From Acidobacteriota bacterium (GTDB lineage Bacteria > Acidobacteriota > Vicinamibacteria > Fen-336), in contig WYBL01000163.1 of assembly GCA_011526565.1 (NCBI GenBank), positions 124,001-188,000 on the forward strand: a DNA stretch of 64,000 bases. Direction: 5' to 3'. Positions 15,289 to 54,104 of the stretch are shown here, piece after piece (within the stretch, counting starts at the first letter, position 1; each line of letters begins with the position of its first letter). Position numbers and translations under genes: made by a program. The notes beneath the pieces were generated by a model. That model was not told the DNA's origin. It saw nothing but the letters and a program-made list of their open reading frames with translations, and searched no databases.

Positions 15289-16005
15289 ATGCTCACGATC
15301 CGCCGCACCCTTCCGTTCGCCCTCGTCCTCGCCGTCGCGGGCTGCCAGCAGAAGCCCGCGGAGCCGGCCGCGCCGCAGCTCCAGACCGACGACCAGAAGA
15401 CGCTCTACACCGTCGGCCAGATGGTCGGCCGCAACCTCGCCCCTTTCAAGCTCACCCCCGAAGAGATGGCGATCGTCAAGGCCGGCATCGACGACGCCCT
15501 CGCCGGCAGGCCCGCCGCGGTACCGATCGAGCAGTACGGGCCGCGAATCCAGCAGTTCCTCCAGCAGCGGGCGGCGAGCGCCCAGGCCGACCCGCAGAAG
15601 CAGGCCGCGCTCGACGAGCAGAAGAAGAAGGGGGCTGCGTTCCAGCAGTCCGCTGCGGCGGAACCCGGGGCCCGGGTGTTGCCGGCCGGCACGATCATCC
15701 GCACGCTCGTCGCCGGCACCGGCGCCAAGCCCTCCGGTCCCGGCGCCACGGTGAAGGTTCACTACCGCGGAACCCTGATCGACGGCAAGGAGTTCGACTC
15801 CTCGATCGCCCGCGGCGAGCCCACCGAGTTCCGACTGGACGGGGTGATCCCGTGCTGGACGGAAGGCGTCGGCGTGATGCAGGTCGGGGAGAAGGCGCGG
15901 CTCGTGTGCCCGCCCGATCGCGCCTACGGCGAGCGCGGCGCCGGCGCCGACATCCCGCCCGGCGCCACGCTCGTCTTCGAAGTGGAGCTGCTGGGCGTCA
16001 AGTGA
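15289..16005 (+). CDS. FKBP-type peptidyl-prolyl isomerase lipoprotein (FkpA/Mip-like)
   Basis: This 238-residue periplasmic folding catalyst isomerises X-Pro bonds. The signal peptide ends in a lipobox (LAVAGC), so the protein is lipid-anchored. A helical dimerisation arm (about residues 30-120), as in FkpA and Mip, starts with YTVGQMVGRNLAPF and is rich in Gln and Ala. The C-terminal FKBP domain (about 125-238) keeps VKVHYRGTLIDGKEFDSS, the VIPCWTEGV strand and the YGERGAG loop. The ATG at 15289 is 10 nt after TATCCT. The gene is monocistronic. Confidence 0.93.
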   Translation: MLTIRRTLPFALVLAVAGCQQKPAEPAAPQLQTDDQKTLYTVGQMVGRNLAPFKLTPEEMAIVKAGIDDALAGRPAAVPIEQYGPRIQQFLQQRAASAQADPQKQAALDEQKKKGAAFQQSAAAEPGARVLPAGTIIRTLVAGTGAKPSGPGATVKVHYRGTLIDGKEFDSSIARGEPTEFRLDGVIPCWTEGVGVMQVGEKARLVCPPDRAYGERGAGADIPPGATLVFEVELLGVK

Positions 16006-16041: not shown

Positions 16042-16047
16042 TAGAAT
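16042..16047 (+). promoter_or_regulatory. TAGAAT -10 box, translocase-HEAT-cNMP gene
   Basis: TAGAAT ends 9 nt before the TTG at 16057. The match supports that TTG as the start. Confidence 0.5.
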
Positions 16048-16056
16048 CCACCCCGC

Positions 16057-19000
16057 TTGAACCTCGGGCAGCGGGCCGCCGCCGTCTTCGACGTCCAGCC
16101 CGGCGAGGGCCGCACGGCCTCGCTGATGCTGGCTCACGCCTTCTCGATGGGCCTGGCCACGGTCTTCTTCGAGACCGCGGCCTCCGCGCTGTTCCTCGCC
16201 CGCTACCCGTCGAGCCTGCTGCCGTGGGTCTACATCGCGGCGGCGGTGGTCAACACCGCGACGGGCCTCGCCTACACGGCGCTGCAGGCCCGGCTCGGCT
16301 TCGCGCGGCTGATGCAGGGCACGCTCGCCTTCCTGCTGGTGGCGACGCTGGTGTTCCGCGCCGGGCTCGCCTGGACGGACGGCGCCGCGCTGGTGTTCGG
16401 GCTGCTCGTCTTCTACCGCGTGGTCTCGATCCTCACCGACCTCGAGTACTGGGCGGTCGCCGCCCGCATCTACGACGTGCGGCAGGCCAAGCGGCTGTAC
16501 GGGTTCGTCGGCTCCGGCGAGGTGATCGCCCGCATCGGCGGCTCGTTCTCGGTGCCGCTGCTGGTGCCCGCCCTCGGCGTGGCCAACCTGCTGCTGCTCT
16601 CCGCGCTCGCGCTGCTCGGCTGCCTGCTGCTGGTGGCGGCCGTGCTGCGCGGCGTCGCGACCGAAGAGCCGCCCACGACCGCCACGCCGGCCTCGGCCGC
16701 CGCACAGCGGCCGGGTGCGCTGTCGCTGCTGCGGACCGTGCTGGCCGACCGCTACCTGAAGCTGCTGGTCGCGGTGGTCTTCTGCGGCGTGCTCGGCAAG
16801 TACTTCGTCGACTTCGCGTTCCTCGAGCAGATGAAGAGCCGCTACGCGGGCGCCAGCGAGCTGGCCACCTTCTTCGGCCTGTTCTCGGGCTTCACCCAGG
16901 TCGGCTCGCTGCTGGCGCGGGCCTTCCTCTCGGGCCGCGTGCTGAAGCGCTACGGCGTCTCGGTCGGACTCGTCATCATGCCGATGGCCCACGTCGCCTG
17001 CACCCTGCTGCTGGTCGGGGCCGGGCTGCTCGACCTCGGCGCCGCGGTGTTCTGGCTGGTGATCGCCAACCAGGGCGTCTACAAGGTGCTCAAGCATCCG
17101 GTCGACTCGCCGTCGATCAAGGTGCTGTACCAGCCGCTGCAGAAGTCGCAGCGGCTGGCGATGCAGGTCGCGGTCGAGACGCTGGTCACGCCGGTCACGT
17201 TCGGGCTGGCGGGCCTGGTGATGCTGCTGTTCGCGACGGTCGTGCCCTACGACCCGACGGCCTTCGCGGTGGTGCTGCTCCTCTCCTTCGCCGCCTGGGC
17301 GTGGTTCGCGCAGCAGGCCGGGCGCGAGTACGCGGGGGCGCTGGCCGCCGCGCTCAAGGGCCGGGTCGAGGACGTCGAGTTCACGTTCGAGGACGAGGCC
17401 GGCCTCAAGGCGCTGAAGGGCACCTTGTTCCAGGGCAAGCCGTCCGAGATCCTGTTCGCACTCGAGCTGCTCGAGAAGAGCCTGGGGCCGAAGCTGGCCC
17501 CGGCCCTGTCCGACCTCGCCGGGCACCCCGCCCCCGAGGTGCGGGCCGCCGTCCTCCACTACGCGGAGCGGCAGCGGCTCGAATCGCTGCGGCCGATCGT
17601 CGAGCGGGCGATCGAGCGCGACTCCGACGCGCTGGTGCGGGCCGCCGCGCTGACCGCACTGGCGGCGGTGGCAGGGACGGCGACCCAGCAGCGGATCGCG
17701 GCCTTCCTCGCCGATCCCGACCCGGCGGTCGCGCGCGCCGCGCTGATCGCCATGCTGCGTCAAGGCGCCGACTTCGCGAACCACCACCTCGCCGAGCGGG
17801 CCCGCTCGCGCCGGCCCGAGCGCCGGCTGTGGGCCGCCCGCGTGATCGCCGACGTGGGCGAGCCGCGGCGCTTCCGGGACGCGCTGGCGCGGCTGCTCGA
17901 GGACGAGTCTCCGGACGTGCGACGGGCGGCGCTGGCCGCCGCGGCCCGCGTGCGCGACCACCGCCACTGGCCGGCGGCGATCCTGGCCCTCGGCGACCGG
18001 GTGGTCGCCGGCGCCGCCGAGAACGCGCTGGTCGCGGTCGGCGACGACGTGCTGCCCGCGCTGCGCGACGCCGTGCGCGTCGAGCAGGACGCGCGGGTGG
18101 CGCGGCGGGCCGCCCGCGTCGTCGGCCGCATCCGCACGCCCGCCGCCCAGGCCCTGCTGTTCGACCTGCTGCAGAGCCCGCACGCGCTGGTCCGCGGCGA
18201 AGCGCTGGGCGCCCTCGCCCGCGCGGGCGCGACCGCGACCGGCGCCGACCGGGCCCGGGTCGAGGCGCTGCTCGAGCGCAGCCTCGAGGACGCGGCCCGC
18301 AAGCTCGCCACCCTCGACGACATCGGCGACGACGAGACCGTCGCGCTGGTCCGCCACGCGCTCGAGAGCGAGCTGCGCGCCGCGGGGGCGCGGCTGCTGC
18401 TGATGCTCGCGCTGACCCACGACCCGGTCGCCGTGCTGCGCGCCCGCGACCACCTCGGCAGCGCCGCCCGCGAGAAGCGGGCCTACGCGCTCGAGCTGCT
18501 GGAGGTGACGCTGGGGCCGGAGCTGTTCGCCCGCGTCCAGCCGCTGCTGGCCGATCCGCCCGACCCGAAGCGGGAGCTGGTGGCCCGCCACGCCCCCGCC
18601 CGCGCGACCCGCGTGGAGCGGCTGGGCGAGCTGGTCGAAGGCGACGCGCTGTGGATGGCGCCGTGGACCCGGGCCTGCGCCGCGGCGGCGGCCGTGCGGC
18701 TCGGGCTGCCCGGCATCGACGTCACGCTGAGCCGCCTGCGCGACCGGGCGCCCGACGACACCTTCGTCGGCGACTCCACGACCGTCGCGCTCAAGCGCGC
18801 CTCGGCGGCGATGCTCGACACGGTTGCGGCGGCGGCGGGCGGCGAGATCGGGAGGGGTCTGATGCTGGCCATCGAGAAGGTGATCATCCTGAAGTCCGTG
18901 AACATCTTCGGGCAGGTCTCCGAAGACGTGCTGGCGGACGTCGGCGCGCTGCTCGAGGAGGTCTCCTACGACGCCGGGCAGGTGATCTTCGAGCAGGGCG

Positions 19001-19317
19001 AGCAGGGCGACAGCATGTACGTGATCATCGACGGCCGCGTGCGCGTGTACGACGGCGAGCGCACGATCGTCGAGCTCGGCGAACGCGACATCTTCGGCGA
19101 GCTGGCCCTGCTCGACCCCGAGCCGCGCTCGGCCTCGATCGCGGCGATGGTGCCGACCCGCCTGTTCCGCCTCGACCGCGAGGCCTTCCTCGAGCTGATG
19201 GCCGGCAGCCCCGAGATCGTGCGCGGCGTGCTGCACGTGCTGTGCGAGCGGCTGCGCCAGACGGCGCGCAAGGCCGGCGGCTACCAGGACAAGCCGGCCG
19301 CTGGACAACAGGGCTGA
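16057..19317 (+). CDS. ATP/ADP-translocase-like (NTT) membrane protein fused to HEAT repeats and a cNMP-binding domain
   Basis: This is a 1086-residue three-part protein. Residues 1 to about 420 form a 12-helix transporter of the NTT/AAA nucleotide-translocase type within the MFS fold (ALFLARYPSSLLP, LYGFVGSGEV, VYKVLKHPVDSPSIKVLYQPL). Residues about 440-920 are HEAT/armadillo-type helical repeats rich in Ala, Arg and Leu (for example VRAAVLHYAERQ and VRRAALAAAARV). The last 130 residues are a CRP-type cyclic-nucleotide-binding domain with the phosphate cassette FGELALLDPEPRSASI, whose Arg normally contacts the cyclic phosphate. The likely role is nucleotide or other anion transport gated by cAMP or cGMP; NTT proteins of free-living bacteria are poorly characterised. 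The TTG start at 16057 is supported by TAGAAT 9 nt upstream. Confidence 0.85.
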   Translation: MNLGQRAAAVFDVQPGEGRTASLMLAHAFSMGLATVFFETAASALFLARYPSSLLPWVYIAAAVVNTATGLAYTALQARLGFARLMQGTLAFLLVATLVFRAGLAWTDGAALVFGLLVFYRVVSILTDLEYWAVAARIYDVRQAKRLYGFVGSGEVIARIGGSFSVPLLVPALGVANLLLLSALALLGCLLLVAAVLRGVATEEPPTTATPASAAAQRPGALSLLRTVLADRYLKLLVAVVFCGVLGKYFVDFAFLEQMKSRYAGASELATFFGLFSGFTQVGSLLARAFLSGRVLKRYGVSVGLVIMPMAHVACTLLLVGAGLLDLGAAVFWLVIANQGVYKVLKHPVDSPSIKVLYQPLQKSQRLAMQVAVETLVTPVTFGLAGLVMLLFATVVPYDPTAFAVVLLLSFAAWAWFAQQAGREYAGALAAALKGRVEDVEFTFEDEAGLKALKGTLFQGKPSEILFALELLEKSLGPKLAPALSDLAGHPAPEVRAAVLHYAERQRLESLRPIVERAIERDSDALVRAAALTALAAVAGTATQQRIAAFLADPDPAVARAALIAMLRQGADFANHHLAERARSRRPERRLWAARVIADVGEPRRFRDALARLLEDESPDVRRAALAAAARVRDHRHWPAAILALGDRVVAGAAENALVAVGDDVLPALRDAVRVEQDARVARRAARVVGRIRTPAAQALLFDLLQSPHALVRGEALGALARAGATATGADRARVEALLERSLEDAARKLATLDDIGDDETVALVRHALESELRAAGARLLLMLALTHDPVAVLRARDHLGSAAREKRAYALELLEVTLGPELFARVQPLLADPPDPKRELVARHAPARATRVERLGELVEGDALWMAPWTRACAAAAAVRLGLPGIDVTLSRLRDRAPDDTFVGDSTTVALKRASAAMLDTVAAAAGGEIGRGLMLAIEKVIILKSVNIFGQVSEDVLADVGALLEEVSYDAGQVIFEQGEQGDSMYVIIDGRVRVYDGERTIVELGERDIFGELALLDPEPRSASIAAMVPTRLFRLDREAFLELMAGSPEIVRGVLHVLCERLRQTARKAGGYQDKPAAGQQG

Positions 19318-19371: not shown

Positions 19372-20601
19372 ATGAAGCCGACCCTGCTGGCGGGGACGAT
19401 CGCCCTCGCCTTCTGCTGCGCCGACGCCCGGGCGGAAGACCTGGCCACCGCCGCCCTCGAAAAGGCCGCGGCCGCGGATGCCTCGGCGCTGGCCGCCGCC
19501 GACTCGGCGGACGACGAGGAAGACGAAGACGACGCCTTCAAGGTCTTCTGGAAGAACGGCCGCACGATCTTCCAGATGAAGAACGCGGAGTTGAACCTCC
19601 GCAACCGCATCGCCTTCCGCTTCACGAACGAGAGCCCCGACGACACCGTGCGGCTGCCCGGCACCGAGCAGCCCGGCGATTCCAAGCCCAGCTTCCGGGT
19701 GCGCCGCGCCAAGACCGAGTTCGCCGGCTGGTTCTGGAAGCCGGAGTTCACCTACGAGCTGCAGCTCTCGTGGGCCGGTCCGGAGGCCGGCGCCTCCACG
19801 GACTCGGCGCTCGAGGACCTGCTGCTGACCTGGGACGCGTCCCGCAAGGGCTCGTTCATGATCACGGTCGGCCAGTTCAAGGTGCCCAACGGCCGCCAGG
19901 AGCTGACGACCTCGATCGGGCTGCAGTTCATCGACCGCTCGCTGCTGACGTTCGAGTTCACCCGCGGCCGCGACCAGGGCGTGATGGTCTGGGGCCGGCT
20001 GGCCGACAAGAAGCTCGAGTACCGCGCCGGCCTGTTCAACGGCAACTCGGCGGCCCGCACCACGAACGACAACGCCAAGCTGCAGTACAACGCGCGGCTG
20101 ATGTTCGAGCCGTGGGGCGAGGTGGGCTACTCGGAGTCCGACTTCGAGTCGAAGGACAAGCCGCTGCTGGCCGTCGCCGTCGGCTTCGAGAACAACGACC
20201 TGTCGGGAGCGACCCAGGGCCTGCAGGGAGGCATCACCGACCTGAACACGACGATCCTGTCGGCCGACGTGTCGTTCAAGTACAAGGGCCTGTCGCTGTT
20301 CGGCGAGTACTTCTCCCGCAACCGCGAGCCCGAGGTCGGCACCTCGTTCCACTCGGACGGCTACCACTTCCAGGCCGGCTACTTCCTGGTCCGCGACAAG
20401 TTCGAGGTCGCCTTCCGCTACGCGGGCTGGGACCCGACCGACGCGGTCGACGGCAACGACCGCACGGAGATCGGCGGCGCCGTCAACTACTACGTGCTCA
20501 AGCACCGCATGAAGCTGCAGGGCGACTACCGCGTGCTCGAAGACGAGCTGCGCGACACCCGCAGCAGCGAGCTGCGGCTGCAGACCTACGTCTCGTTCTG
20601 A
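19372..20601 (+). CDS. OprO/OprP-type outer-membrane porin
   Basis: This 409-residue outer-membrane beta-barrel belongs to the phosphate-selective porin O/P family. A signal peptide (about 1-21, cleaved near ARA) is followed by an acidic Ala/Asp/Glu linker. The barrel region has alternating aromatic strands (FKVFWKNGRTIFQ, RAKTEFAGWFWKPEFTYELQ, FMITVGQFKVPNGRQEL) and ends in the terminal Phe (YVSF) needed for BAM insertion. Ion selectivity cannot be read from the sequence, and the family name does not prove phosphate transport. The ATG at 19372 has AGGAG upstream. The gene stands 13 nt before the subtilisin gene, so the two may be co-transcribed. Confidence 0.88.
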   Translation: MKPTLLAGTIALAFCCADARAEDLATAALEKAAAADASALAAADSADDEEDEDDAFKVFWKNGRTIFQMKNAELNLRNRIAFRFTNESPDDTVRLPGTEQPGDSKPSFRVRRAKTEFAGWFWKPEFTYELQLSWAGPEAGASTDSALEDLLLTWDASRKGSFMITVGQFKVPNGRQELTTSIGLQFIDRSLLTFEFTRGRDQGVMVWGRLADKKLEYRAGLFNGNSAARTTNDNAKLQYNARLMFEPWGEVGYSESDFESKDKPLLAVAVGFENNDLSGATQGLQGGITDLNTTILSADVSFKYKGLSLFGEYFSRNREPEVGTSFHSDGYHFQAGYFLVRDKFEVAFRYAGWDPTDAVDGNDRTEIGGAVNYYVLKHRMKLQGDYRVLEDELRDTRSSELRLQTYVSF

Positions 20602-20614
20602 GGGGGGATCTCCG

Positions 20615-21925
20615 ATGCCCCTTCGGCGAGCCCTGATTGCGAGCGCGGCCGCGCTCGCCTGCTCCCTGCCGGCTTCCGCCCAGGAGGCGGGCGCCGACGT
20701 CTACGACGCGCTGCGGGCCGACGGCCGCGCGCGGGTGATCGTCTCCTTCCGCGCGCCCGAGGCCGCCGGTCTGGCGGCCGCGGCCGAGCGCATCGGCGCC
20801 GTCCGCCAGCGCGTGCTGTTCGACCTCGGCCCGGGCGAGTGGGAAACCGTGTGGTCCTTCGACACGATCCCGGGCGTGGCGGGCCTGGTGACGCCCGCCG
20901 GCCTGCGCAAGCTGCTCTCGGACCCGGACGTGGACCGCGTCGACCTCGACGCGATGGCGTTCATGGCGACCGGCGAAAGCGCGGGGGTGATCCGCGCCAA
21001 CGACGCCCGTGCCGCGGGCGCGACCGGCGCCGGCATCGTCGTCGCGGTGCTCGACACCGGGATCGACAGCGACCACCCGGACCTCTCCGACGACATCGTC
21101 GGCCAGGAGTGCTTCTGCGAGGCCAACGGCGGCGCGGGCTGCTGCCCGAACGGCTCCAAGACCCAGTCGGGGGCCGGCGCCGCCGAAGACGACCAGGGCC
21201 ACGGCACCCACGTCTCGGGCGTGATCAGCGGCGCTGGCGCCGCCGCCCCGCGCGGCATCGCGCCCGACGCCAAGCTGATCGCCTACAAGGTGCTCGGCCG
21301 CGACGGCTCCGGCAGCTCCTCCGGGATCCTGGCGGCGCTCGACCAGATCGCCAAGAGCAAGCCCGAGGTCAAGGTCGTCAACGTCAGCATCGCGATCGGG
21401 CAGTTCCCTGGCCCCTCGTGCGACGCCGCGAGCGCCCTGAACTCCAGCTTCGCGGCGGTGATCAACACCCTGAAGAACCGCGGCACGGTCGTGGTCGCCT
21501 CGTCCGGCAACAACGGACTCAACAGCCAGATCGCGCTGCCGGCCTGCATCACCAACGCGGTGGCCGTCGGCGCGGTGTACGACGGCAACGTCGGCACGGT
21601 GACGTTCGGCTGCACCGACGCGACGACCGACACCGACCAGGTCGCCTGCTTCTCCAACACGTCGCCCGCGGTCGACGTGCTGGCCCCGGGCGCGGCGATC
21701 ACCTCGACCGGGATGGGCGGCGGGGCGGCGACGTTCATCGGGACGTCGCAGGCCGCCCCGCACGTCGCCGCTGCCGCGGCGGCGCTGCTGTCTGCCAACG
21801 GCGGGCTCTCGGTGGACGCGATCGTCAACGCGCTGAAGGGCACCGGGCATGCCGTCACCGACCCCAAGGCCAGCCTGGAGTTCCGCCGCATCGACGTCAA
21901 GGCCGCGCTCGACTCCGTGCGCTGA
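20615..21925 (+). CDS. Secreted subtilisin-like serine protease (S8)
   Basis: This 436-residue exported subtilase has a signal peptide (about 1-22, ASAQ) and an inhibitor-I9-like propeptide (about 25-110). The catalytic domain carries Asp in VLDTGIDSDHPDL, His in GHGTHVSG, the oxyanion Asn in ASSGNNG and Ser in GTSQAAPHVA. A Cys-rich insertion after the Asp (CFCEANGGAGCC) and further paired Cys suggest disulphides, as in extracellular enzymes. Its role is probably extracellular protein degradation. The ATG at 20615 has GGGGGG upstream. A strong bidirectional hairpin follows the stop. Confidence 0.93.
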   Translation: MPLRRALIASAAALACSLPASAQEAGADVYDALRADGRARVIVSFRAPEAAGLAAAAERIGAVRQRVLFDLGPGEWETVWSFDTIPGVAGLVTPAGLRKLLSDPDVDRVDLDAMAFMATGESAGVIRANDARAAGATGAGIVVAVLDTGIDSDHPDLSDDIVGQECFCEANGGAGCCPNGSKTQSGAGAAEDDQGHGTHVSGVISGAGAAAPRGIAPDAKLIAYKVLGRDGSGSSSGILAALDQIAKSKPEVKVVNVSIAIGQFPGPSCDAASALNSSFAAVINTLKNRGTVVVASSGNNGLNSQIALPACITNAVAVGAVYDGNVGTVTFGCTDATTDTDQVACFSNTSPAVDVLAPGAAITSTGMGGGAATFIGTSQAAPHVAAAAAALLSANGGLSVDAIVNALKGTGHAVTDPKASLEFRRIDVKAALDSVR

Positions 21926-51602: not shown

Positions 51603-51617
51603 GCCGATGGCGCCGCG

Positions 51618-54104
51618 ATGACCACGCCGCCGAATCCCAGCGACGACGCGGCGGTGGCGCCCGGACCGCAGCCGGGCCTTCCGGAGAGCTACCAGCACGC
51701 GCTGGTCGAGACCGTGGCGGTGCTCGACATCGTCACCGAGCTGATCAGCCGCTCGCTCGACACCTCCGACATCGAGCGCATCCTGGCCAAGCTCGACGCG
51801 GCCCAGGGCGACGCCTTCACCGCGAAGCTGGGCGAGCTGCTGCGACGGACCTCCGCGCTGCTGGTCGTCACCAGCCGGCTGGCCGACAGCCAGTCGGTCG
51901 ACGAGTTGCTGGGGCAGATGGTCGAGCTGATGGCGGCCTTCGTCGACGCCGAACGCTGCTCGATCTTCCTCTACGACGCGCGGTCCGACGAGCTCTACGC
52001 GCGGGCCGCCGTCGGCCTCGGCGAGGTGCGCTTTCCCGCCGGCCAGGGCATCGCCGGCAGCGTGTTCCGCAGCGGCAGGTCGGTGCAGATCGACGACGCC
52101 TATGCGGACCCGCGCTTCAGCCCCGAGGTCGACCGTCGCACGGGCTTCCGCACCCGCAACCTGCTGTGCGTGCCGATCCGGCACCTGCGCGACGGGAAGT
52201 CGGCGGTGGTCGGGGCCGCGCAGTTGCTCAACAAGCGGCGCGGGGCGTTCGCCCCGGGCGACATGACCCTGCTGGAGACGCTCAACTCCCAGGCGGCCAC
52301 CGCGCTGGTCAACGCGATGCTGCACGAGGAGATCGCCCGCACCCGCTCCGAGGAGCGGCAGATGCTGGAGGTGACGGCGGCGCTGGGCAGCGAGCTGCAA
52401 TTGCAGCCGCTGCTGCTCAAGATCATGGAGACCGTGTCGCTGATCCTGGAGGCGGACCGCGCGACGCTGTTCGTCCACGATGCCGCCAGCGACGAGCTGT
52501 GGGCGCTGGCCACCCAGGGCGGCCGTGTCTCCGAGATCCGCTTCCCCGCCTCGCGTGGCATCGCGGGGCACGTGTTCCGGACCGGCGACACTATCAACAT
52601 CCCCGACGCCTACGCGGACCCGCGCTTCAACCCCGAGGTCGACCGCCAGACGGGCTACCGCACGCAGACCATCCTCTGCATGCCGGTGTTCGACCGCCAG
52701 GGGCGGGCGATCGCCGTGACCCAGGTGCTCAACAAGCGGGGCGGCCCCTTCACCTTCATCGACGAGCGGCGGCTGCGGGCGTTCTCCAGCCAGGCGGCGG
52801 TGGCGATGGAGAACGCGCGGCTGTTCGACGAGGTGACGCGGGTCAGCCAGTACAACGAGAGCATCCTGGAGAGCATGTCGAACGGCGTGATCACGCTCGG
52901 CGCGGCGGGCACGATCGTCAAGGTCAACGCCGCCGCGGTGCGCCTGCTGCGCCTCGACGAGGCCGGCCAGGCCGTCGGCCGCCACGCCGCCGACTTCTTC
53001 GCAGGCGCCAACGCGTGGATCGCGGAGTCGATCGACGCGGTTCGCGGCAGCGGTCGGCCCGACGTGGCGATGGCGGTGGAGATGTCGGTGCCGCGGCGCC
53101 TCGCCTCCGTCGACCCGGCGGCGGGCCAGGAAGTGCTGTCGGTGAACCTGTCGGTGGTGCCGCTGCCGGACGCGCGCCAGTCGGGCCCCGGCTGCATGCT
53201 GATGATCGAGGACCTGACCCAGGAGAAGCGGCTCAAGACGACGATGGCCCGCTACATGACCAAGGAGGTCGTCGACCGCCTGCTGGAGGAGGGCGAGGCC
53301 GCCCTCGGCGGCCGCGAGCTGCACGCGACCGTGCTGTTCACCGACATCCGCGGCTTCACCTCGATCGCCGAGGCGCTGGGCGCGCACGAGACGGTGTCGC
53401 TGCTCAACGACTACTTCTCGCTGATGGCCGACGTGATCCTGGAGCGCGGCGGGCTGGTCGACAAGTACATCGGCGACGCGATCCTGGCCGTGTTCGGCGT
53501 GCCGTTCGGCTCGCCCGACGACGCCGACCACGCCGTGCAGGCGGCGATCGGGATGCTGTCCGCCGTGGGCGAGTTCAACGGCGCGCGCGAGGCGCTGGGG
53601 CTGCCGCCGGTGCTGATGGGGGTCGGCATCAACAGCGACGAGGTGGTGTCCGGCAACATCGGCTCGCCGCGGCGGATGGACTACACGGTGATCGGCGACG
53701 GCGTCAACCTGGCCTCGCGGCTGGAGGGCGCGAACAAGAGCTACGGCAGCGAGATCCTGATCAGCGAGATGACCGCGGCGGAGCTGAAGCGGCCGTACGC
53801 GCTGCGCGAGCTCGACCGCATCCGGGTCAAGGGCCGCAGCCAGCCGGTGGCGGTGTTCGAGGTGCTGGACCACCTCGCCCCCGAGGCCCCGGCCCGCGAC
53901 CCGCGCAAGCTGGACGCGTTCGCGCGCGGCCTGCGCGCGTACCGGGAGCGCGACTGGGCGCAGGCCGAGCGCGACTTCGAGGCAGCGCTGGCCGTCGATC
54001 CGAAGGACGAGGCGTCACGCCTGTACCTGCGCCGCTGCGCGCACTTCCGGGAGCACCCGCCGGCGCCGGACTGGAACGGCGTGTGGGTGATGACCGAGAA
54101 GTAG
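51618..54104 (+). CDS. GAF-GAF-PAS class III adenylate cyclase with TPR tail
   Basis: This 828-residue soluble cyclase has GAF1 (about 93-235), GAF2 (about 257-398), PAS (about 413-532), a class III cyclase domain (about 560-750) and a short TPR-like tail. The metal-binding Asp residues are in FTDIRGFT and KYIGDAILAVFG. The substrate-selecting Lys (KYIGD) and Thr (DYTVIGD) fit ATP. GAF2 has the full cyclic-nucleotide-binding signature NK-x4-F-x3-DE (NKRGGPFTFIDE); GAF1 has NK-x4-F-x3-D with Met for Glu. The plan matches Anabaena CyaB1/CyaB2, in which GAF-bound cAMP activates the enzyme. It ends 6 nt from the convergent TonB receptor gene. Confidence 0.92.
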   Translation: MTTPPNPSDDAAVAPGPQPGLPESYQHALVETVAVLDIVTELISRSLDTSDIERILAKLDAAQGDAFTAKLGELLRRTSALLVVTSRLADSQSVDELLGQMVELMAAFVDAERCSIFLYDARSDELYARAAVGLGEVRFPAGQGIAGSVFRSGRSVQIDDAYADPRFSPEVDRRTGFRTRNLLCVPIRHLRDGKSAVVGAAQLLNKRRGAFAPGDMTLLETLNSQAATALVNAMLHEEIARTRSEERQMLEVTAALGSELQLQPLLLKIMETVSLILEADRATLFVHDAASDELWALATQGGRVSEIRFPASRGIAGHVFRTGDTINIPDAYADPRFNPEVDRQTGYRTQTILCMPVFDRQGRAIAVTQVLNKRGGPFTFIDERRLRAFSSQAAVAMENARLFDEVTRVSQYNESILESMSNGVITLGAAGTIVKVNAAAVRLLRLDEAGQAVGRHAADFFAGANAWIAESIDAVRGSGRPDVAMAVEMSVPRRLASVDPAAGQEVLSVNLSVVPLPDARQSGPGCMLMIEDLTQEKRLKTTMARYMTKEVVDRLLEEGEAALGGRELHATVLFTDIRGFTSIAEALGAHETVSLLNDYFSLMADVILERGGLVDKYIGDAILAVFGVPFGSPDDADHAVQAAIGMLSAVGEFNGAREALGLPPVLMGVGINSDEVVSGNIGSPRRMDYTVIGDGVNLASRLEGANKSYGSEILISEMTAAELKRPYALRELDRIRVKGRSQPVAVFEVLDHLAPEAPARDPRKLDAFARGLRAYRERDWAQAERDFEAALAVDPKDEASRLYLRRCAHFREHPPAPDWNGVWVMTEK

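Follow-up and report, generated by a model that had tools for sequence, protein, structure and literature searches.

The protein encoded by the fusion gene described here (the window denotes the whole stretch of 64,000 nucleotides that was analysed) is tentatively interpreted as a cAMP-responsive membrane transporter or sensor, which may reuse the fold of nucleotide translocases (NTTs) for a substrate other than ATP/ADP; we regard this as a plausible reading of its sequence and predicted structure. The fold and the fusion are real, and the architecture is already known. The reading draws on the predicted fold, the order of the domains, an intact phosphate-binding cassette, the loss of the NTT lysines and purifying selection, and also on the host genome, which has 7 matches to class III cyclases and 35 to cyclic-nucleotide-binding domains (cNBDs), and on a porin gene found downstream in all three genus members. 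The features of the locus are listed in Table 1.

Table 1. Features of the fusion gene, its product and other genes of the window (positions of the window, + for the forward strand)
Feature	Position	Strand	Basis or remark
FKBP-type peptidyl-prolyl isomerase	15289..16005	+	neighbour conserved within the genus only
TAGAAT, -10-like box	16042..16047	+	precedes the TTG start by 9 nt; unchanged in the three same-genus genomes
NTT-HEAT-cNBD fusion gene	16057..19317	+	1086 aa, TTG start; orthologues L004/L005
12-helix NTT/MFS-fold membrane domain	16108..17355 (residues 18-433)	+	Pfam TLC match 16426-17331, model, Foldseek
Y59 at the AtNTT1 K155 site (nucleotide binding)	16231..16233	+	two alignments; PMC3306366
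R121 at the AtNTT1 E245 site (translocation)	16417..16419	+	two alignments; PMC3306366
D252 at the AtNTT1 E385 site, conservative change	16810..16812	+	D in 10/11 clade members
R366..A368..Q370..E374 replacing the canonical K-x-K-G-K...D motif	17152..17178	+	alignments
F382 at the AtNTT1 K527 site (ATP binding)	17200..17202	+	canonical FGKSGG, TFGLAG in the window protein
HEAT-repeat solenoid	17395..18828 (residues ~447-924)	+	Pfam, AlphaFold2 model
Cyclic-nucleotide-binding domain	18868..19272 (residues 938-1072)	+	Pfam, model, Foldseek
Phosphate-binding cassette FGELALLDPEPRSASI	19093..19140 (residues 1013-1028)	+	inspection; conserved in direct orthologues
Porin O/P family outer-membrane protein	19372..20601	+	54 nt downstream; AAGGAG before its ATG
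Subtilase	20615..21925	+	13 nt after the porin gene; neighbour kept in genus
GAF-GAF-PAS class III adenylate-type cyclase	51603..54104	+	32 kb from the fusion gene

Domain architecture

The host genome is a 5.8-Mb Vicinamibacteria MAG of a soil-type bacterium, in agreement with the free-living type of genome that the initial annotation had assumed. The fusion reading frame is a real gene: GC content by codon position (0.77/0.48/0.98) fits a real high-GC gene, two same-genus genomes encode orthologues of about equal length with 98% and 84% identity, and Pfam matches lie above the curated cut-offs for TLC (PF03219, residues 124-425, 39.7 bits with a cut-off of 21), HEAT_2 (63 bits) and cNMP_binding (residues 969-1049, 84.6 bits with a cut-off of 27.5). 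An AlphaFold2 model built from a 50-sequence alignment (pLDDT 85, pTM 0.78) comprises 12 long helices, a helical solenoid and a beta-roll cNBD. The domain make-up proposed from the sequence, namely an NTT-like transporter, a HEAT-repeat stretch of about 480 residues and a cNBD, is thus borne out by Pfam and by the full-length structure prediction that had been suggested as a check. The chain stops after the C-helix of the cNBD, and no CRP/FNR-type C-terminal helix-turn-helix was found by Pfam or in the model.

In a Foldseek search of the PDB the top match to the model was CpNTT1 of Chlamydia pneumoniae (9j3n), and AtNTT1 (9j3m) aligned with a TM-score of 0.73 of the target; a sequence search likewise matched 9j3n, at E 2.4e-6. 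Sequence match and 12-helix fold are those of the NTT or ATP:ADP antiporter family (PF03219, TC 2.A.12), and the succession of NTT, HEAT and cNBD in one chain places the protein in the NTT-HEAT-cNBD fusion family. This fusion family is known from the 2017 paper of Major, Embley and Williams (PMC5381601), who found the NTT-HEAT fusions to be monophyletic, called their function unknown, and put forward the idea that the cNBD might tune the uptake of ATP by binding cAMP. The architecture has thus been in print since that paper, and the earlier remark that similar fusions are known but have no known role agrees with it.

Loss of nucleotide-transport residues

Four charged residues of AtNTT1, K155, E245, E385 and K527, are important for ATP/ADP exchange (PMC3306366), and their conservation has been documented (PMC4256464). 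ADP binding is abolished in K155 mutants and ATP binding in K527E, whereas E245K still binds but has almost no transport left (PMC3306366). In the window protein these columns hold Y59, R121, D252 and F382, on which MAFFT and hmmalign (highest posterior class) agree, and the canonical NTT of Ca. Megaera (L036) has K, E, E and K in all four. The site numbers were presumably assigned to the right motifs, as counting in an AtNTT1 sequence gives K, E, E and K after a uniform one-residue shift. A HMMER pairwise alignment to 9j3n moves the last site by one and yields L rather than F, still not K. The K-x-K-G-K...D motif reads R-x-A-M-Q...E. None of the four essential charged residues is therefore present as such in the window protein, E385 to D being the only conservative change.

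The nucleotide transport suggested by the initial annotation accordingly fares badly, with three of the four defining charged sites and the K-x-K-G-K motif replaced; the loss of such residues, which it had named as a result that would refute the idea, is largely what the alignments show (K155 to Y59, E245 to R121, K527 to F382). As judged from these residues, ATP/ADP exchange by the window protein is unlikely. An altered mode of nucleotide binding is possible and would be compatible with their loss. Since most of the ATP-moving residues are gone, a cAMP-controlled transporter or sensor for another substrate is the more likely reading, and cAMP may gate the transport or sensing that such a protein would perform.

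The window clade and its selective constraint

In a tree of 82 NTT domains, which covers Acidobacteriota and two canonical rows, the window protein groups with other NTT-HEAT proteins, apart from the canonical single-domain NTTs; the architecture labels of this tree under-count cNBDs because many loci are partial. The window clade comprises 11 rows (SH-aLRT 100), and the lysines of K155, K527 and K-x-K-G-K are absent from all of them. The other NTT-HEAT proteins examined retain the third lysine of K-x-K-G-K, a few of them as R, but it is lost in 11 of 11 members of the window clade; the E245 equivalent is retained in some (L012, L023, L024).

Between same-genus species the cNBD is 93% and the NTT domain 89% identical. 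In a Nei-Gojobori comparison of a single gene pair, the window gene and its 84% orthologue, dN/dS is 0.18 for the NTT domain, 0.26 for the cNBD and 0.35 for the HEAT region. All domains are under purifying selection, and by dN/dS the constraint is strongest on the membrane domain, which speaks against its decay.

TLC matches occur in 61 of 199 sampled Acidobacteriota genomes. The host genome itself encodes a second full NTT-HEAT-cNBD protein, on contig C100 (L095 and L096, C100:10001-45000), 38% identical to the window protein; the same region encodes several further cNBD proteins, two of which have TPR repeats, as well as a histidine kinase and a TonB-receptor-like protein. On another contig (C177; L097 5228-9021) NTT-HEAT and a double cNBD are encoded by two separate genes with a 4-nt overlap at the start of the second, the split form of the fusion of Major et al. 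A collection of plasmids searched for close fusions gave a single partial match, from Runella rosea.

The cyclic-nucleotide-binding domain

The intact phosphate cassette reported from the sequence was confirmed: FGELALLDPEPRSASI contains the ribose-binding glutamate E1015 and the phosphate-binding arginine R1024, as the PF00027 cassette demands, and this FGE...PRSAS cassette is intact in the direct orthologues as well. It is also kept, as FGEMAALDPEPRSASV, in the C100 paralogue. The serine that follows the cassette arginine does not discriminate between cAMP and cGMP. The cNBD is degenerate in L013, as it is in one of the two tandem genes of L104, hence control by cyclic nucleotides is not clade-wide.

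The cAMP-forming enzyme announced for the same window does exist, with adenylate-type residues by inspection. It is weak evidence, because 32 kb separate its gene from the fusion gene and the genome has seven cyclase matches in all, beside 35 cNBD matches; for the same distance and number we rejected it as a dedicated partner of the fusion.

Signalling neighbours of other NTT-HEAT clades

In a sister NTT-HEAT clade a STAS gene, one or two NTT-HEAT genes and an FHA-GAF-SpoIIE gene follow one another. SpoIIE and/or STAS adjoin NTT-HEAT in 14 of 14 loci from four Acidobacteriota family groups, two of the loci being interrupted by a contig end (L111 6680-13789; L115 3863-10902; L121 6367-13475; L125; L129-L138). 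The module was absent next to the gene in the other NTT-HEAT loci sampled. A full-text literature search found no report of an association of STAS/SpoIIE with NTT-HEAT, and this link of NTT-HEAT proteins with bacterial signalling is apparently unreported. Histidine kinases adjoin other NTT-HEAT genes, and signalling domains are commoner within two genes of NTT-HEAT than at least four genes away; several loci come from related genomes, for which reason no p-value is attached to this enrichment. A single-domain NTT often lies near the sister-clade STAS/SpoIIE loci, on the opposite strand.

These neighbours are one argument for a rather doubtful alternative, according to which the window protein would be a former transporter turned into a non-transporting receptor or scaffold, whose core would sense a ligand or the state of the membrane while the HEAT arm docks partners and cAMP serves as a second input. 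The lost transport residues and the large HEAT arm would suit such a role. However, the signalling module is absent from the window locus and from its clade, the next genes encoding a porin and a subtilase instead, and position 252 is aspartate in nearly all clade members, as expected of a binding or coupling site. Because the window clade is a different one, the sister-clade module bears on the function of the window protein by analogy only.

Several further arrangements were seen among NTT-HEAT genes. In divergent pairs (L110 7615-14132; L112 7476-14048; L114 7836-14352; L119 7932-14449; L116) an NTT-HEAT gene faces away from a longer one of 1224-1249 aa; this clade keeps the K-x-K...D...K residues, and L110:10455-14132 carries two cNBDs. 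The proposal that fusion to a cNBD goes with loss of the lysines was rejected, another clade with NTT-HEAT-2xcNBD proteins having kept them. In G191 (L104 4071-10889) two NTT-HEAT-cNBD genes stand in tandem with a 42-nt gap; the cNBD of the first-transcribed gene is degenerate, whereas the second gene encodes two cNBDs. A TonB-receptor-like gene and an nSTAND1-WD40 gene lie immediately upstream of the pair. On the Runella rosea plasmid NZ_CP030852 (L108 1776-10489) a TonB receptor, a GNAT protein, an NTT-HEAT-like protein annotated as an MFS transporter and a sensor histidine kinase are encoded in a tight row. TonB receptors were seen in Runella, in G191 and close to the C100 paralogue, yet they make up only 2 of 79 near genes in a wider sample, and linkage to them was discarded as a rule. 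Chlamydia CT589, which lies beside RsbU, had been considered as an NTT-HEAT protein, wrongly, as it is an RsbU paralogue.

Gene neighbourhood and the downstream porin

The genes for FKBP, NTT, porin O/P and subtilase have the same order in three members of the genus; the order's other family does not keep this arrangement. An FKBP-NTT-porin operon of general occurrence was rejected, the arrangement being limited to the genus and the upstream gene being different in the other family. No forward terminator was found between the fusion gene and the porin gene, and NTT, porin and subtilase may share one transcript. The box upstream of the TTG start may give a near-leaderless transcript of the fusion gene. 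TANNNT boxes (TAGAAT, TAGACT, TAGGAT) lie at most 30 nt upstream of 15 of the 33 predicted genes of the window, a count with no chance level attached, and as a sequence pattern they hint at near-leaderless transcription in the host.

The porin gene invites another interpretation, which we consider improbable: a transporter of anions or phosphate that is gated by cAMP and has the Porin O/P protein as its partner. The closeness of that gene, its own ribosome-binding site, its retention in the genus and the missing terminator agree with it. On the other hand, the genome has six matches to PF07396 (Porin O/P), the members of this family are not all phosphate-selective, and the linkage is genus-limited. 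A further point in its favour is the probable export of Pi together with ADP by NTT1 (PMC3306366).

There is also little likelihood of a cAMP-gated ATP/ADP translocase, in which cAMP would report the energy state and tune nucleotide exchange in the manner suggested by Major et al. for the fusion family (PMC5381601): NTT homology and fold, the intact cassette and that published suggestion speak for it, but K155, E245, K527 and K-x-K-G-K are all replaced, AtNTT1 mutants at such sites are impaired (PMC3306366), and the host genome encodes PurH (purine synthesis), so that nucleotide import is probably not needed.

Proposed mechanism and significance

In the preferred reading, that of a cAMP-responsive transporter or sensor for another substrate, the window protein would be a single-chain inner-membrane protein whose 12-helix core of NTT/MFS fold is joined to a HEAT arm in the cytoplasm and to a binding domain of the cAMP type. 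Binding of cAMP to the C-terminal domain would cause a change that the HEAT arm could relay to the membrane core, where it would switch the movement or sensing of a substrate other than ATP/ADP; the most economical guess for that substrate is a periplasmic solute entering via the downstream-encoded porin. Against this reading we count the porin/subtilase neighbourhood, which is not kept beyond the genus, the degenerate cNBDs of some clade members, the conservative nature of the E385 to D change and the E245 equivalents kept in the three members named above. The broader proposition, that the window clade is a class of membrane proteins which took over the fold of ATP translocases, gave up nucleotide transport and now move or sense another substrate under cAMP control, within a wider link between NTT-HEAT proteins and signalling, is possible but should be held with considerable reserve.

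NTTs are usually taken as a mark of energy parasitism. If the window clade cannot move ATP, the label "ATP/ADP translocase" misleads for its members, and the cAMP idea, if true, would turn from the tuning of ATP uptake to the question of another substrate or a sensor. It would also mean a secondary-transporter fold under direct cAMP control in one chain, which would be uncommon in bacteria.

Comparison with known systems

The fusions presented by Major et al. in 2017 (PMC5381601) match the window protein in their three domains and in the succession of these; they are bacterial, including free-living organisms, with Acidobacteria among those sampled. The relevant portions of the main text of that paper carry no analysis of transport residues, whereas the window clade is shown here to be devoid of the NTT lysines. 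A second Acidobacteriota fusion clade (e.g. L110:10455-14132, with two cNBDs) keeps K-x-K...D...K, unlike the window clade. With the canonical NTTs (CpNTT1, 9j3n; AtNTT1, 9j3l/9j3m; the Ca. Megaera NTT on AP017965) the window protein shares the 12-helix fold and a homologous membrane domain. These are single-domain proteins with the equivalents of K155/E245/E385/K527 and with K-x-K-G-K (the CpNTT1 segment examined excludes the K155 and E245 sites), whereas in the window protein the four sites read Y/R/D/F and the motif reads R-x-A-M-Q. SLC9C1, a cNMP-controlled Na+/H+ exchanger, and the channels SthK and MloK1 resemble the window protein in being membrane transport proteins with an attached cytoplasmic cNBD, and it is through the cNBD that SLC9C1 and cNMP-gated channels rank high in the Foldseek search with the model. 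Their membrane domains, with a voltage sensor or a pore, are unrelated to the NTT fold with its HEAT arm, and the analogy is therefore one of mechanism only.
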